Assembly: GCA_022797535.1 (NCBI GenBank)
Contig: JAAWKU010000020.1
Location: 1 to 64,000 of the forward strand
Direction of reading: 5' to 3'
DNA: 64,000 bases
DNA from: Lachnospiraceae bacterium
GTDB lineage: Bacteria; Bacillota; Clostridia; Lachnospirales; Lachnospiraceae
Both the position numbers and the translations under genes were made by a program. This document shows positions 55,585-64,000 of this stretch, one piece after another. Numbering within the stretch: position 1 is the stretch's first letter; each line of letters begins with the position of its first letter. The notes below the pieces were generated by a model, which searched no databases, was not told the DNA's origin, and was given only the letters and a program-made list of their open reading frames with translations.

Positions 55585-56379
55585 CTACAACTTGATATCC
55601 AATATCTTCCGGCTCACAAAATAAGAGGCAGCAAAGATCATCAGGGCAATGGATACAGACAACTGGCCTATAGGCGACTGCAGGTCAATCAAGTCCCCGC
55701 CCATGGATTTCATCAGCAGAATAAAAGCTACCGGCATCACCAACATAATATTCTGTTCGTTTTTCTGACCGGATACCATCGTCTCCAATTCCATCTGGAT
55801 CTCTATCTTGTCCCCCAGAATTACTGTGGTGTTTTTGATGACTTCCTTAATATTGCCGCCCTTTTTATAACAGGTTGCAAACACGTTGGCAAAATTGCGG
55901 ATATCCTCAATTCCGCTGCGCTCCGCGAAATTCATCAAAAGATCCTCAATTTGAATATTGTTATTCAGCCCTGTGCGGATTATCTGCACTTCTTTTACAA
56001 TATCCGCATCCGCCGAAAACTGCACTGCCAGGTCTTCTGCGGCGCCGGCAAAGGCGTCAAACATATTTTTGCCTGCGCCTATAGAAGTGGACAGTGCGTC
56101 TAACAACCCCCGAAACTGCATGGTAAGCCTGGTTTGACGCTTTCTGATTACCTGCCCGGTTCTCATGGGGACAAATATAAATCCACAGACAGCGCCCACA
56201 ATGACAGATACCAGTATCTTTTCGTAAAATATGTACAGCACTGCGCCGCTGGCCGCCATGCCCATGAGAAACCACAGAATCTTCTCTCCAGGGCTGGGAA
56301 AATAAACATTATAATCCGTTGCGTCGCAGGTCAGCCCCGTTTTTACCTCATAAGGTTCCTTTTTTCCAAATAGCTTCAT
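55585..56379 (-). CDS. tadB: Tad type II secretion F-domain protein TadB
   Basis: FRGLLDALSTSIGAGKNMFDAFAGAAEDLAVQF; FATCYKKGGNIKEVIKNTTVILGDKIEIQMELETMVSGQKNEQNIMLVMPVAFI. Confidence 0.82.
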   Translation of the reverse strand: MKLFGKKEPYEVKTGLTCDATDYNVYFPSPGEKILWFLMGMAASGAVLYIFYEKILVSVIVGAVCGFIFVPMRTGQVIRKRQTRLTMQFRGLLDALSTSIGAGKNMFDAFAGAAEDLAVQFSADADIVKEVQIIRTGLNNNIQIEDLLMNFAERSGIEDIRNFANVFATCYKKGGNIKEVIKNTTVILGDKIEIQMELETMVSGQKNEQNIMLVMPVAFILLMKSMGGDLIDLQSPIGQLSVSIALMIFAASYFVSRKILDIKL

Positions 56380-56390
56380 CCGTATCTCTC

Positions 56391-57629
56391 CTAGATCTCT
56401 TCCCGTATACCTGTCATAATCAATTTATTCCTGTGGACCATCTGATTGGCTGTCCGCCGCAGAGCTCCGGAAACCTTGTATAAAGTGCTGTTCTCATCCT
56501 CCTCAAACACATACAGAGGATTCAGTTCAATCTGCCCGTTCCGATATCCCACCACCTCCGTGATCTCCATTGTCTTACGGGACTTATCCCTCAGTCGGGA
56601 CAGATGGATAATAATATCTACCGCCGAGGCGATCTGTTGGCGAATCGCCTCCAGCGGCAGGCCGTCCGCTCCCTGAAGCACCATGGTTTCCAGACGACTC
56701 AGCATATCCTGTGTGGAGTTGGCATGCCCGGTGGACAGTGAGCCGTCATGGCCGGTATTCATGGCCTGCAGCATATCCAATGCTTCCCCTCCCCGGACCT
56801 CGCCCACAACAATACGCTCCGGGCGCATACGCAAAGAGGATTTGATCAGATCCCGTATGGTAATCTGTCCTGCGCCAGATGCGTTGGCATTGCGGGTCTC
56901 CAGCCGGACCAGGTTCTCCACTCCCTCAATCTGAAGTTCCGCCGAGTCCTCTATCGTAATCACTCGTTCGTCCTTGGGAATGTAATTGGAAAGCGCATTG
57001 AGGAAGGTGGTCTTGCCGGAACCGGTGCCTCCGCAGATAAATATGTTGTATTTAGCCCTGACCAGCAGCTCCAGCTTATCCGCGATCTCCTGGGTGATGG
57101 AACCATATCGGATCAGTTTCGCAATGGTCATGGGTTCCTTGGAAAACTTTCGAATGGTCAATGTAGGGCCGCACAGTGCAATGGGCGGCAATACCACATT
57201 TACACGAGATCCGTCCGGCAATCTGGTATCGCAGATTGGATTGGCCTGATTGACTTCCCTTCCTGCCAGGCCCACAATCCGCTGTATAATGTCCTCCAGC
57301 CGCCGTTGGCTCTCAAACTGCTTGTCCAGCTTAAACAGATGCCCGCCCTGCTCTATAAAGATATTCTGGGGACCGTTTATCATTACCTCCGTGATGGTGT
57401 CATCACTGATAATCGCATCCAGCAGCCCAAAGCCTCTGATGGAACTGTATACCTGTTCCACGATGGACACCCTCTGTTCTATGGGCACATACTGTCCTCC
57501 CAGATGCTGCTCCGTAACCTGTTCAACCTTTTCTTCCAACTCCTGGTCTGTCAACTGGCTAATGGGAATATTATCTATAATGTAGTCCTTGATATTCGCT
57601 ACCATCTGTTGCTCTGTTTCAAAAGTCAT
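56391..57629 (-). CDS. tadA: Tad secretion ATPase TadA/CpaF
   Basis: [76 protein letters not shown]. Confidence 0.95.
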
Positions 57630-57640
57630 GCATTTTCTCC

Positions 57641-58705
57641 TTAGTACAATTTATCCAGTACTTCCTGCTCCGCCAGCTGTCTCAGCAGCTGTTCCACCGT
57701 ATAACCCTCATAGCGCTTGATGCCTCCGACTTCTCTGACATCCGAAATCGCCGCCTTCTCTGAAGTCCTGCTGCTGAATCGGTTATACAGGATACTGCAT
57801 CGGATCAGGAGTTTCCAGTCATTCTGTTCCTCGAGAATCCTCATGGACGCCATAACCCGCTCCAGCTTCCTGTTGGAGGTCGGAGAACCATCCCCTACCA
57901 TTACGATCTGGGCACATTCCCGCAAAATATCCAGTTCCGATTTTTCAAGAGAAAAATCCATATCTAAAATGATATAGTCATATGCACCACACATCTTAAT
58001 ATTAGCGATCATGTTACGGATTTCCTCAGAATTCAGTTCTGCCATATCCAGTGCCGTGGCTGTGGCAGAATAGAACCATACGCCTGACGGATCCTGCTTC
58101 ACAACGCTCTCCAGCTTTACGGACAGATTCCCCTTCCTGCTCTTGATGGCATATATAATGTCCTGAAAACTGCCCGCTCCCTCCGCCTGGAAGAATACAT
58201 CCGCACTGCCAAACCGTTCCAGATTCAGGTAGAGAACCTTTTTTCCCTTTCTGGCCAGTCTGATTGCGCTTGCAGCTGCAACTGTCGAAGCCCCTGTGCC
58301 GCCGGATGCCGCCAGATAGGCAATTAACCTGCCCCCGTTTCCCTGTTCCATATGAAGTCCGGTAATCTCTGTCACATTCTCCGCGTATATACTCAGGATC
58401 TGCCGGTAAATCAAATCTGCTTTCTGAAATTTATGTATGACCTGCTGCCCTCGAAAAGATTCAATCTCCGCGGAATCAACCAAGTAGGCAAAACCACAGC
58501 GCCCTGGAATCTGCCGGTTGTCAATCTCAAAACTATCGTCTGCCAGAAACACATCTATCCTGCTGGCTGTCAACGCTTCAAAAGCCGCCTGCTCCCGCGT
58601 GAAAGAATACATTTCCAGCTTCTCGGTATACCGGGAATTAAACGCTGAGACCAGACGATTCAAATAGGTCTTATCACTCCCCAGAATTGCCACTTTAATT
58701 TTCAT
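57641..58705 (-). CDS. CpaE/TadZ-like ParA-type ATPase
   Basis: Receiver-like N-term; LIAYLAASGGTGASTVAAASAIRLARKGKKVLYLNLE. Confidence 0.85.
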   Translation of the reverse strand: MKIKVAILGSDKTYLNRLVSAFNSRYTEKLEMYSFTREQAAFEALTASRIDVFLADDSFEIDNRQIPGRCGFAYLVDSAEIESFRGQQVIHKFQKADLIYRQILSIYAENVTEITGLHMEQGNGGRLIAYLAASGGTGASTVAAASAIRLARKGKKVLYLNLERFGSADVFFQAEGAGSFQDIIYAIKSRKGNLSVKLESVVKQDPSGVWFYSATATALDMAELNSEEIRNMIANIKMCGAYDYIILDMDFSLEKSELDILRECAQIVMVGDGSPTSNRKLERVMASMRILEEQNDWKLLIRCSILYNRFSSRTSEKAAISDVREVGGIKRYEGYTVEQLLRQLAEQEVLDKLY

Positions 58706-60006: not shown

Positions 60007-61233
60007 TCATGTAATCGGCGGCTCCAGAAAATCCGCCATCACCATATTGGCTACATCCAATCCCCGCTCCGTCAGATACAGGTATTTTTCTCCAGTCTTG
60101 TCCTGATAGTCCAGTAACCCTAATGCAATATATCGATCTATAACCTCTCCATACACCTCTTCCAGCCTCCGGTGGAAAAATCTATAAAATGTTCCTGCGC
60201 ATACTCCCTCCGTCAGACGCAGGCCCAGAAACATAAATTCTTCCATCTGCTCCGCCATTGACAACAGGCTGGACGGCTCTCTCTGTCTCAAAGGGGCCTC
60301 CAGATAAGAAGTCAGTTCTCTCCCATTCCGGAATCGGACATTATCCACCAGCGAAGCCGCGCCTATGCCAAAACCCAGATAGTTTTCCCTGGTCCAATAC
60401 CCCACATTATGCCGACACTCGCCCCCCGCCTTTGCATAGTTGGAGATCTCATAGCGCTGATACCCGTACTCCCGTAAAACCCGCTCCGTCAGCCCATATA
60501 GCGCCCGGTCCGTCTCCTCGTCCGGCAGTTTCAGTTCTCCGTCCTCATAGCGCCTGGCAAAATCCGTTCCCTCCTCCAGGATCAGACTGTAGGCGGAAAT
60601 ATGCTCCGGCCCGGGCACAAGCTCCGCCACCCTTCTTAGTGTGGTCTCATAAGAAGCAGGGGTTTGACCCGGCAAGCCGCTCATCAGATCCACATTGATT
60701 CTGGAAAATCCTGCTGCCACCGCCCCCTGGTAGGCATCCAGAAACTGCCTCCAGGTATGAATCCTCCCCAGCTCTTTCAGTTCCTCATCCCAGGATGACT
60801 GCAAGCCCAGACTCAGACGGTTTATTCCCGCCTTATAATACCGTCTCAGAGCATCTCGGTCCGCCGTCCCCGGGTTGACCTCCATGGAAATTTCTGCCTC
60901 CGGCAGAACCCGGTAGCATTGACGCAGGATATCCATTATCTTCTCGATGTGTCCCGACGCAAGCAGACTGGGCGTACCGCCCCCGATAAAGACTGTGGTC
61001 ACCTCAAAACCCGCATACGCCTCCGCCCGGCCCCGCATCTCCCGCTCCAGCGCCCCCACATATTGATCCTGTACTTCCCGCCCCGCCGGAGCGGACAGGA
61101 AATCACAATATCCGCATTTGCGCATGCAGAAAGGAATATGAATATATATTTCCGTATTTTTCACCTCTGCCTCTGTTACGCCATCCCCAACAGACCTCAT
61201 AAACCCTTCATTAATACGGATGCCGTCTGACAT
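60007..61233 (-). CDS. hemW: radical SAM heme chaperone HemW
   Basis: IYIHIPFCMRKCGYCDFLS; VFIGGGTPSLL; EVNPGTADRDALRRYYKAGINRLSLGLQS. Confidence 0.92.
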   Translation of the reverse strand: MSDGIRINEGFMRSVGDGVTEAEVKNTEIYIHIPFCMRKCGYCDFLSAPAGREVQDQYVGALEREMRGRAEAYAGFEVTTVFIGGGTPSLLASGHIEKIMDILRQCYRVLPEAEISMEVNPGTADRDALRRYYKAGINRLSLGLQSSWDEELKELGRIHTWRQFLDAYQGAVAAGFSRINVDLMSGLPGQTPASYETTLRRVAELVPGPEHISAYSLILEEGTDFARRYEDGELKLPDEETDRALYGLTERVLREYGYQRYEISNYAKAGGECRHNVGYWTRENYLGFGIGAASLVDNVRFRNGRELTSYLEAPLRQREPSSLLSMAEQMEEFMFLGLRLTEGVCAGTFYRFFHRRLEEVYGEVIDRYIALGLLDYQDKTGEKYLYLTERGLDVANMVMADFLEPPIT

Positions 61234-61377
61234 GCCTGTCCGGGGCAGAACGTTGTCAAAAATTTTTATTTACAAATTTACTGTGTTGTATCTAATCAGA
61301 CTGTATGCAAATGATTACAACACCTAAATAGGAAGATGGACATTTTAACTCCTTCATAAGCAGAAAAAGATTCCGGC

Positions 61378-61911
61378 TCATGAACCTTCTTTGATCAACC
61401 CCAATTCTACTGCCATAGAAGGATTCAATACCAGTACATCCGCTTTCCATATCTTTCTATAACGTAACAGCCTTGTCTCAAGTTCCGCCTTAGGACCACC
61501 TAACCAGCTTTCTTCAGCCTCTGCGATCACAAGAACAAACCTGATCTTACTCCCCATATATGTCCGCTTTTTAACAATTTTTTCTCCCACACTGTCACTG
61601 TACCCATTTATCCCCAGCACAGTTGCAGAAAACATATTAATAGAATCGACAAATTTGTCCGCTATTTCACTATAATATTGCTCATACTTTTTCTGTTTAT
61701 CCTCACTGTCGTTCTTGTTGGCCTCATTGGGGCAAGTCTTTTTGGCTTCTACAAACAAAACATTTTCACCCGCTGTCAAATAAATAAATTCTACTGTTTT
61801 GATTCCTTCCCCAGTCTTCCGGTGTATATCCGAATGCTCAATATGAAACAATTGTTCCTTTTCCAGATTATCAAATTTTACACCCGGCTCAATTATGGGT
61901 TCAGCCCTCAT
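61378..61911 (-). CDS. putative PD-(D/E)XK-type nuclease partner of AAA ATPase
   Basis: VEFIYLTAGENVLFVEAKKTCP (ExK motif); 4-bp overlap with ATPase gene. Confidence 0.55.
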   Translation of the reverse strand: MRAEPIIEPGVKFDNLEKEQLFHIEHSDIHRKTGEGIKTVEFIYLTAGENVLFVEAKKTCPNEANKNDSEDKQKKYEQYYSEIADKFVDSINMFSATVLGINGYSDSVGEKIVKKRTYMGSKIRFVLVIAEAEESWLGGPKAELETRLLRYRKIWKADVLVLNPSMAVELGLIKEGS

Positions 61912-62942
61912 AATTTCACCCCTATCTCATCTCTGTAAATCTGTAAATATGTTTTGGTTATTGGGTTATTCTCCAGCAAAGTAAACTGTTCACTGGTCTC
62001 ACAGCATACGCCTCCCCCTTCGGGCTGAAAATAGAAGGAATAGTATGATACCAAATCCTCCTGTGCCTTTTTGATATCAATATACTTCGCCAAAAAGTAA
62101 TTATGAGTGGATAGGAATATTTGTACACCATTTCTGTATAATTCCAACAACAATTCTGCCACTGTGGACAGATAGGCAGGATTTACATTTGCCTCTGGCT
62201 CATCCCAAAACAGAATGGAGCCTTTTTCCAGAGTACCATTCTTAGCCAGAAGCCACAAAAGGCCCATTTTTTTGATTCCCTCCGCAACAAGACTGAATTC
62301 CTGTTTCGAACTGCCCTTTTTTAAGTAAAATTCATCTTTGTCTCCGTCATAGACCACCTGTCCGTCCGTCATTTTTTCTATTCTTTTTAGCATTGCTGCC
62401 CTGGCTGTAGGATTTTTTCCCATCGTAATATCGATTTTTGCGGAGTTAATTATGTCGATATACGTATCATCAAATCTGACATTATCTACACTTGTTGCGG
62501 CGGCAAGCTTATAACTATGAGAGAGGATTTCTTTAGCGGGAATAAAGATACTGGAATTGTCCTTAAATTCCTTTTCCCACTTTTCCTTCCCTCTCACATC
62601 TGCCGCACTCTTTTTGGTCTTTTTATCAAAGGTAATCTCCAGATGCGCATCTGTCCTTTTATCATCATTCGCCGCATTGACCCTGATCTTTGCAATATGA
62701 TTACCCTTTCGTCTATCCACAAGTCTGGAAATACGAAAGTCATCTGGCATCATGGTACGAACAATTTTCTGTCCGAAATCAGTATCCATGCGGTTAGATC
62801 TGCAAGCTGAATATAATATTTTTAACATGTGCGTCTTTCCTGTAGCATTTTCCCCGATAAAGACATTGATTCCATTGCAGAAATCTATCGCCACTTTTTC
62901 AAACACTGTTATATTTTCAATCTTTACACTTTTAAGTTTCAT
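61908..62942 (-). CDS. RecF/OLD-like AAA ATPase
   Basis: INVFIGENATGKTHMLKILYSA (Walker A); KGSILFWDEPEANVNPAYLSTVAELLLELYRNGVQIFLSTHNYFLAKYI (Walker B, switch His). Confidence 0.9.
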   Translation of the reverse strand: MKLKSVKIENITVFEKVAIDFCNGINVFIGENATGKTHMLKILYSACRSNRMDTDFGQKIVRTMMPDDFRISRLVDRRKGNHIAKIRVNAANDDKRTDAHLEITFDKKTKKSAADVRGKEKWEKEFKDNSSIFIPAKEILSHSYKLAAATSVDNVRFDDTYIDIINSAKIDITMGKNPTARAAMLKRIEKMTDGQVVYDGDKDEFYLKKGSSKQEFSLVAEGIKKMGLLWLLAKNGTLEKGSILFWDEPEANVNPAYLSTVAELLLELYRNGVQIFLSTHNYFLAKYIDIKKAQEDLVSYYSFYFQPEGGGVCCETSEQFTLLENNPITKTYLQIYRDEIGVKL

Positions 62943-62977
62943 ACACCGTCCCCCTTAACACTGCCATCCCCATACCG

Positions 62978-64000
62978 TCATTTCCGATCATCCAGCTTCA
63001 GCACGCTCATAAATGCCTTCTGGGGAATCTCCACGCTGCCGATCTGGCGCATACGCTTCTTACCCTCCTTCTGCTTCTCCAGCAGCTTCTTTTTCCGGGT
63101 AATATCGCCGCCATAGCACTTGGCCAGCACATCCTTGCGCATAGCCTTGACTGTCTCCCTGGCGATGATCTTGCCTCCCACCGCCGCCTGGATGGGAATT
63201 TCAAACAGATGCCTGGGAATCTCGTCTTTCAGCTTCTCGCACATCTTCCTGCCCCGCTCGTAAGCAGAATCCGCATGAACGATAAAGGACAGCGCGTCCA
63301 CTTCCTCCCGGTTAATCAGGATGTCCAGCTTCACCAGGCTGGACTGCTCGTACCCTTTCAGATCATAGTCAAAGGAAGCATAGCCCCGGGAGCGGGACTT
63401 CAGCGCGTCAAAAAAGTCATAGATAATTTCGTTCAGAGGCAGTTCATATTTCAGCAGCGCCCTGGTTCCTTCAATATATTCCATGCCCAGATACCGTCCC
63501 CGCCTCTCCTGACAGAGTTCCATAATGGAGCCGATGAATTCGCTGGTCACCATGATTTCCGCATTGACGATGGGTTCCTCCATATATTCGATCTCCGAGG
63601 GATCCGGCAGATTGGAAGGATTGGTCAGTTCGATGACTTCTCCGTTGGTCCGGTGCACTTTATAAATTACCCCCGGCGCAGTGGTCACCAGATCCAGATT
63701 ATATTCCCTCTCCAGCCGCTCCTGAATGATCTCCAGATGTAAAAGTCCCAGGAATCCGCACCGAAACCCAAAACCCAAAGCCACCGATGTCTCCGGCTCA
63801 TAGTTCAAAGACGCGTCATTTAACTGCAGCTTCTCCAAAGCGTCCCGCAAGTCGGGATACTTGGCGCCGTCCGCCGGATACATGCCGCAATACACCATGG
63901 ACTGCACCTTCTTATAGCCGGGCAGCGGCTCCCCGCAGGGATTGCCGTCATCCGTCACCGTATCCCCCACCGCCGTATCCTTCAGGTTCTTAATGGAAGC
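62978..64000 (-). CDS. lepA: elongation factor 4 (LepA), 5' end beyond window
   Basis: [69 protein letters not shown]; frame open to 64000. Confidence 0.96.

Follow-up and report, generated by a model that had tools for sequence, protein, structure and literature searches.

A stand-alone HEC-02 candidate defence cassette, pairing an OLD/SMC-type ATPase with a putative PD-(D/E)XK nuclease, between lepA and hemW of a Lachnospiraceae bacterium

Several described defence systems pair an ATPase with a nuclease. In Septu EcB88, mutations of the Walker and HNH motifs each abolish defence, and tRNA-Tyr is cut (PMC13096335). In PARIS, as summarised in PMC12839542, tRNA is cleaved by a TOPRIM nuclease that AriA activates on sensing Ocr. 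In 594 taxa that have BREX or BREX-related systems, the same paper (2026) describes OLD-ABC ATPases with an HNH, PD-(D/E)XK or PIN nuclease as partner; for these dyads it proposes a backup suicidal role. HEC-02 is catalogued in PADLOC-DB 2.0 (HEC, Hma-embedded candidate) as a candidate defence system, with no description. Several HECs (HEC-06 is named) were active in assays in an archaeal immunity paper of 2026 (PMC12988326); our literature search returned no anti-phage assay of HEC-02, no mention of it as a defence system and neither a fold nor any biochemistry for HEC-02B.

The window analysed here was a stretch of 64,000 nucleotides (contig JAAWKU010000020.1, assembly GCA_022797535.1), in which a pair of genes matching HEC-02 was located between hemW and lepA. 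Both proteins matched the PADLOC models over nearly their full length, with the same pairing and the same sizes; the window copy differs from the catalogued system by lying outside any Hma or BREX locus. The dyads of PMC12839542 have, by their description, the same domain pairing and BREX embedding as HEC-02, but are treated in that survey as parts of BREX/BR loci, whereas the window copy is free-standing. The present analysis adds evidence for the assignment of HEC-02B as a nuclease, a deletion scar and a foreign origin of the cassette, figures for how often homologous pairs lie in BREX operons, and a hint that the ATPase has exchanged partners.

The two-gene ATPase-nuclease layout is held in common with Septu (PtuA-PtuB) and retron I-A PtuAB, and the closest Foldseek match of the predicted HEC-02A structure was the PtuA of retron I-A (3e-16). 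Septu differs in its HNH partner, where a PD-(D/E)XK motif is found here, and in the length of the matched PtuA chains (about 370-525 residues, versus 344 aa). The ATPase of PARIS (AriA-AriB) belongs to the same broad class (AriA model, 3.5e-20), and a BREX/RM association is reported for both systems. Membership of either system was rejected: the small protein gave no HNH or PtuB match and carries the PD-(D/E)XK motif instead, and it gave no AriB (TOPRIM/DUF4435) or Toprim match. The original prediction had likened the layout to Septu and PARIS while expecting a partner domain other than HNH or TOPRIM.

The gene pair and its surroundings

All coordinates are given in Table 1. The two overlapping ORFs were found where the original prediction had placed them, and every motif that it had named (GENATGKT, WDEPEANVNP as part of FWDEPEANVNP, STHNY and FVEAKK) was present. 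It had also proposed a check with PADLOC; since both HEC-02 models were matched, the pair was assigned to the candidate defence system HEC-02. The four bases ATGA are common to both ORFs, so that HEC-02A and HEC-02B may be translationally coupled; a 4-bp overlap was the most frequent arrangement among homologues with a non-type-II partner (27/42). Promoter-like matches around the pair were no more frequent than in shuffled sequences and the 35-bp spacer leaves little room for a promoter; the pair is therefore likely to be transcribed by read-through from lepA, which lies in the same direction, as does hemW.

Table 1. Features of the HEC-02 cassette and its flanks (window coordinates)
Feature	Coordinates	Strand	Evidence or conservation
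lepA (stop at 62978)	62978 onwards	-	
Spacer, lepA stop to ATPase start, 35 bp, with G-rich ATPase ribosome-binding site	62943..62977	-	
HEC-02A: 344-aa OLD/SMC-type ABC ATPase	61908..62942	-	Pfam AAA_21, 1.9e-19; PADLOC HEC-02A (PDLC04213), E=4.1e-119, residues 1-342; pLDDT 89; Foldseek
ACAGT copy 1, codons 12-13 of ATPase, one end of G021 deletion	62905..62909	-	
Walker A GENATGKT, residues 30-37	62832..62855	-	G30, N32, G35, K36 invariant in 55 sequences
ABC signature-like EFSLVAEGIKK, residues 215-225	62268..62300	-	E215, F216, E221, G222, K225 invariant in 55 sequences
Walker B + D-loop FWDEPEANVNP, residues 245-255	62178..62210	-	FWDEPEAN and P255 invariant in 55 sequences
H-switch STHNY, residues 278-282	62097..62111	-	T279, H280, Y282 invariant in 55 sequences
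ATGA stop/start overlap of the pair	61908..61911	-	4-bp overlap also commonest in homologues
HEC-02B: 177-aa PD-(D/E)XK-type nuclease (putative)	61378..61911	-	PADLOC HEC-02B (PDLC04221), E=3.6e-44, residues 3-174; motif and profile tests; pLDDT 95.9
E41, first acidic active-site residue (predicted)	61789..61791	-	E in close homologues, D in distant
E55-A56-K57, (D/E)XK signature	61741..61749	-	E55 and K57 invariant in 41/41
K86, long helix after core	61654..61656	-	invariant in 41/41
ACAGT copy 2, 3' of small gene, other end of G021 deletion	61280..61284	-	
hemW	60007..61233	-	

Among the other 38 long ORFs of the window that were scanned, no defence gene was evident; PglZ was absent from the genome of origin. 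A Tad/Flp pilus-like cluster was seen at window positions 55585-58705, just past hemW and a sigma factor, with genes that look like a TadA-type ATPase, a CpaE-like ATPase and a TadB-like membrane protein.

Catalytic motifs and predicted folds of the two proteins

In an alignment of 55 homologues of HEC-02A, the Walker A motif, EFxLVAEGxxK, FWDEPEAN and the H-switch histidine were invariant or nearly so. With the ABC fold of its predicted structure, the full set of OLD/SMC-like ABC features (Walker A, signature, Walker B/D-loop, H-switch and fold) was thus present. Beyond the retron I-A protein, Foldseek matches of the model comprised SMC heads, Septu PtuA, Rad50, retron Eco7/Eco8 proteins and GajA. 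Because of the conserved ABC motifs and these structural matches of its model, HEC-02A is classified as an OLD/SMC-type ABC ATPase and not as RecF itself; of the earlier label "RecF/OLD-type", only the second half was retained.

The small protein was more difficult to place by similarity. A Pfam scan of the window HEC-02B returned no family, scans of 41 and 28 members of its two subtypes gave sub-threshold matches only and no accepted family, and PDB sequence searches with the HEC-02B sequence and profiles returned nothing useful. The sub-threshold Pfam matches include nuclease families (SduA_C, SwaI-like, UPF0102, NERD and ERCC4). The main alignment (the window protein and 40 homologues) showed, in addition to the invariant residues of Table 1, a nearly invariant E8. 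In subtype II (28 sequences), D41, D43, E56-Y-K58-N and K89 were invariant, E56-Y-K58 being found in 28/28 and K89 being the equivalent of K86. The two subtypes are homologous by profile comparison (hhalign: 98.4%, E=1e-14), and an acidic residue followed by a conserved (D/E)-x-K, as in PD-(D/E)XK enzymes, is present family-wide in both.

The motif was compared with profiles of four PD-(D/E)XK families (YraN, NERD, SduA_C and Cas4) and of three controls (Toprim and two ATPase halves). With the merged HEC-02B profile, p was 5e-5 for YraN, 0.0075 for SduA_C, 0.0087 for NERD and 0.013 for Cas4. The controls gave p=0.12 to 0.42 (0.2 to 0.4 for Toprim), with alignments at unrelated places. All four local alignments with the nuclease families fell on HEC-02B residues 35-66, around E41 and E55-x-K57, and these residues were in register for YraN, SduA_C and NERD, and in or near register, with gaps, for Cas4. 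Only YraN is strong when taken alone, and the weight of the test lies in the agreement of position. The spacing of the acidic residue and ExK is also that of Shedu SduA (SduA_C), NERD and YraN.

In the predicted structure of HEC-02B, one strand starts beside E41, another ends at E55-A-K57, and a long helix bearing K86 follows. A Foldseek search of this model against the PDB and viral predicted structures gave no match below E=0.001. PD-(D/E)XK proteins were nevertheless frequent among the highest-ranked, non-significant matches: Hachiman HamA came first in the PDB list, with NucS/EndoMS, Mus81 and XPF also near the top, and endonuclease I and an MmcB-like protein were near the top of the viral list, as was a head-completion nuclease. 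HamA, SduA, NERD and YraN differ from HEC-02B in that there is no significant sequence-family match, and in their other partners and other architectures. Motif conservation and the register shared with known nuclease families make it likely that HEC-02B is a PD-(D/E)XK-type protein; the signature originally suspected in FVEAKK is thus borne out by the invariant E55, K57 and K86 and by the family comparison, and not by a significant fold match.

HEC-02B might instead keep the PD-(D/E)XK fold and serve as a sensor of nucleotides or nucleic acids without being a nuclease. PMC12839542 assigns a sensor role to inactive REase domains that have an NTPase as partner. The motifs of inactive REases are eroded, however, whereas across three subfamilies of HEC-02B neither E55 nor K57 varies and position 41 nearly always holds an acidic residue, and we regard a purely sensory role as very unlikely.

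Origin, loss and distribution of the cassette

lepA and hemW had been described as common neighbours, and in 28/28 relatives with both genes readable they were separated by -7 to 243 bp, with the cassette absent; the interval measures 1744 bp in the window. An insertion hotspot between the two genes was rejected, as all 28 relatives have 243 bp or less at this place. The cassette has a GC content of 39-40% and a GC3 of about 0.40, and the flanking genes a GC content of 49-54% and a GC3 of 0.56-0.70. By its composition the cassette is foreign and horizontally acquired. The site shows no evident mobile element.

In G021, the nearest relative (LepA 98% and HemW about 85% identical), the cassette is missing, and 35 bp past lepA lies the scar ATGATACTGAAAAGTCTAAGAATTGCAAAGATATA, whose first 33 bases agree with the beginning of the ATPase gene at 26 positions. 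The scar then joins, at ACAGT, sequence 3' of the small gene (L099 1380-1425 and L136 1565-1589, contig 71). Its best match in the whole 64-kb window was the ATPase start, and 1/20,000 shuffles was as good. Since G021 keeps this 33-bp remnant, its lack of the cassette is attributed to a deletion at the ACAGT repeat. The simplest reading is that the cassette was gained before the two species split and that a deletion later removed about 1.6 kb from G021. A pure insertion with no prior presence in G021 was rejected on the evidence of the scar. The pair had been predicted to be an insertion; the foreign composition and the absence from the interval of 28 relatives agree with that, but the comparison is not simply one of an insertion with an empty site. 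The scar may also be noted as a record of the loss of a candidate defence module by microhomology deletion.

Selection on both genes is purifying: against a homologous locus (L018), pN/pS was about 0.11 (ATPase) and 0.27 (small gene). These values are rough because synonymous sites are almost saturated.

A scan of one genome per species gave 80 ATPase loci, spanning Bacillota, Synergistota, Kiritimatiellota, Acidobacteriota, Chloroflexota, Pseudomonadota and others. Pairing is strict across these phyla: a right-sized partner ORF lay directly 3' of the ATPase in 84/95 ATPase loci, and several of the exceptions were contig ends. Cultured hosts of the pair include Anaerobutyricum hallii DSM 3353 (L054), Mitsuokella multacida DSM 20544 (L074) and Lysinibacillus piscis (L047). 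Presence is sporadic and not fixed among relatives (HEC-02B subtype I model in 13/392 genomes of the order; HEC-02A in 2/138 congeneric genomes). The second congeneric copy (G758, L267 1444-3163) has a HEC-02A only 34% identical and a subtype II partner, and is located at an unrelated site, with neither lepA nor hemW beside it.

These data bear on two other functions for the pair. It could be a toxin-antitoxin or addiction module, in which a constitutive nuclease toxin is neutralised by the ATPase and stabilisation of a plasmid or locus is the main role, as an overlapping two-gene operon and the Pfam label of AAA_21, which names the AbiEii type IV TA system, would allow. We consider this unlikely: matches were found in only 7/72,556 plasmid and 2/50,697 phage records, a single deletion removed almost all of the cassette from G021, a kind of loss that addiction modules resist, and the catalytic residues of the ABC ATPase are fully conserved, although a passive antitoxin needs none. 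An ordinary DNA-repair or housekeeping pair, with a RecF/Rad50-like ATPase and a repair nuclease, would fit the resemblance of the ATPase to Rad50, SMC and RecF in sequence and fold. Such a role is highly improbable for genes that are rare, sporadic and foreign in composition, were lost in G021 and lie inside BREX operons elsewhere.

BREX association and proposed function

The 290 proteins encoded immediately around the 80 loci (two genes to either side) included 9 PglX, 8 PglZ, 4 BrxL and 2 BrxC. Six loci (L025, L027, L028, L042, L070 and L077) have the pair between pglX and pglZ, another (L081) has it between brxC and pglX, and L020 and L032 are BREX loci too. In total, at least 9/80 homologous loci, the window copy not among them, have the pair in or beside a BREX operon. 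PglZ was found in only 40/295 genomes of the order, weak matches included (about 26 strong), so that about 0.01 to 0.02 cases of PglZ adjacency are expected by chance (own estimate for 80 loci, each with four neighbours in a genome of about 3000 genes). HEC-02 pairs are inside BREX operons far above chance. In a sample of the order drawn without regard to BREX, one genome (G208) has HEC-02B 18 bp from pglZ. BREX loci are scattered on the ATPase tree (9 changes for 9 rows, a number inflated by truncated contigs).

The reading of the pair as a candidate defence system, put forward in the original prediction, is thus supported, at the level of sequence, by the PADLOC match, the nuclease signature and the sporadic presence, and the homologous pairs in BREX operons provide the defence association of the family. 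The pair is probably a stand-alone HEC-02 cassette, a horizontally acquired two-gene immune module in which an ATPase sensor licenses a metal-dependent nuclease on infection. PD-(D/E)XK enzymes mostly cut DNA, and DNA is for this reason the most likely substrate of HEC-02B; RNA could conceivably be the target. By analogy with Septu and PARIS, sensing and licensing would most likely be the role of the ATPase, as follows: HEC-02A would bind ATP, form a head-to-head dimer or higher assembly and hold HEC-02B in check in an ATP-driven complex. It would change state on sensing an infection product, possibly a phage-encoded inhibitor of restriction or BREX, and would then license HEC-02B as a Mg2+-dependent nuclease using E41, E55 and K57. 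Cleavage of nucleic acid would stop the phage and possibly the cell too, in which case the outcome would be abortive. Points against this reading are that the literature search returned no anti-phage assay of HEC-02, that Foldseek gave HEC-02B no significant fold match, and that the pair is isolated in its own genome, where PglZ is absent and the other 38 long ORFs scanned in the window include no evident defence gene.

The BREX embedding suggests a guard role. The pair may be a BREX- or RM-dependent backup, with a suicidal nuclease that the ATPase triggers when it detects either anti-restriction proteins of a phage or the disabling of the host's BREX/RM complex; a lone copy would then be a relic or would guard another system of the cell. 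In favour of this are the homologous pairs found repeatedly inside BREX-1 and BREX-2 operons and beside type I RM genes, the PARIS precedent and the same proposal for OLD-ABC dyads in PMC12839542. Against it, no BREX genes adjoin most of the 80 loci or the window copy, whose own genome is without PglZ, and the lone copy is under purifying selection. Dependence on BREX or RM is accordingly a possibility, and not the one that we favour.

On the HEC-02A tree (a quick, short search, with weak deep branches), the partner subfamily (I, II or distant) needs 6 changes by parsimony, of which well-supported branches require at least 3 per subtype, which suggests that the ATPase has swapped partner nucleases. 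The module was found at stand-alone sites and in BREX-1, BREX-2 and type I RM loci. HEC-02A could be an interchangeable sensor, and HEC-02 a plug-in guard that fires whichever PD-(D/E)XK effector it carries on a trigger common to all hosts, e.g. anti-restriction proteins; we propose this tentatively and hold it to be rather doubtful.

For the favoured reading, an immune module licensed by its ATPase, the window copy is convenient material. It is compact and free of BREX and Hma genes, so that a clone of less than 1.7 kb suffices to assay it alone, and the conserved residues are direct targets for mutation (K36, D247 and E248 in the ATPase; E41, E55 and K57 in the putative nuclease). The theme of PARIS, Septu and Gabija, an OLD/SMC-type ATPase licensing a nuclease, would be extended to another, predicted nuclease fold.

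Two annotated plasmids carry the pair within BREX operons. In the BREX-1 operon of Methylomonas koyamae plasmid pLM6, the order is brxC-[pair]-pglX-PDDEXK-pglZ-brxL; the PDDEXK nuclease-domain protein (L140, 20105-21262) is separate from the pair, so that this one operon holds two accessory nuclease modules. In the BREX-2 operon of Polaromonas plasmid pPNAP01, the order is pglX-[pair]-hypothetical-pglZ, and the hypothetical protein between the HEC-02 pair and pglZ is about 1240 aa long (L141, 11735-15457). Gene clusters resembling type I restriction-modification systems were seen near the HEC-02 pair in six loci (L026, L036, L047, L054, L055 and L087).
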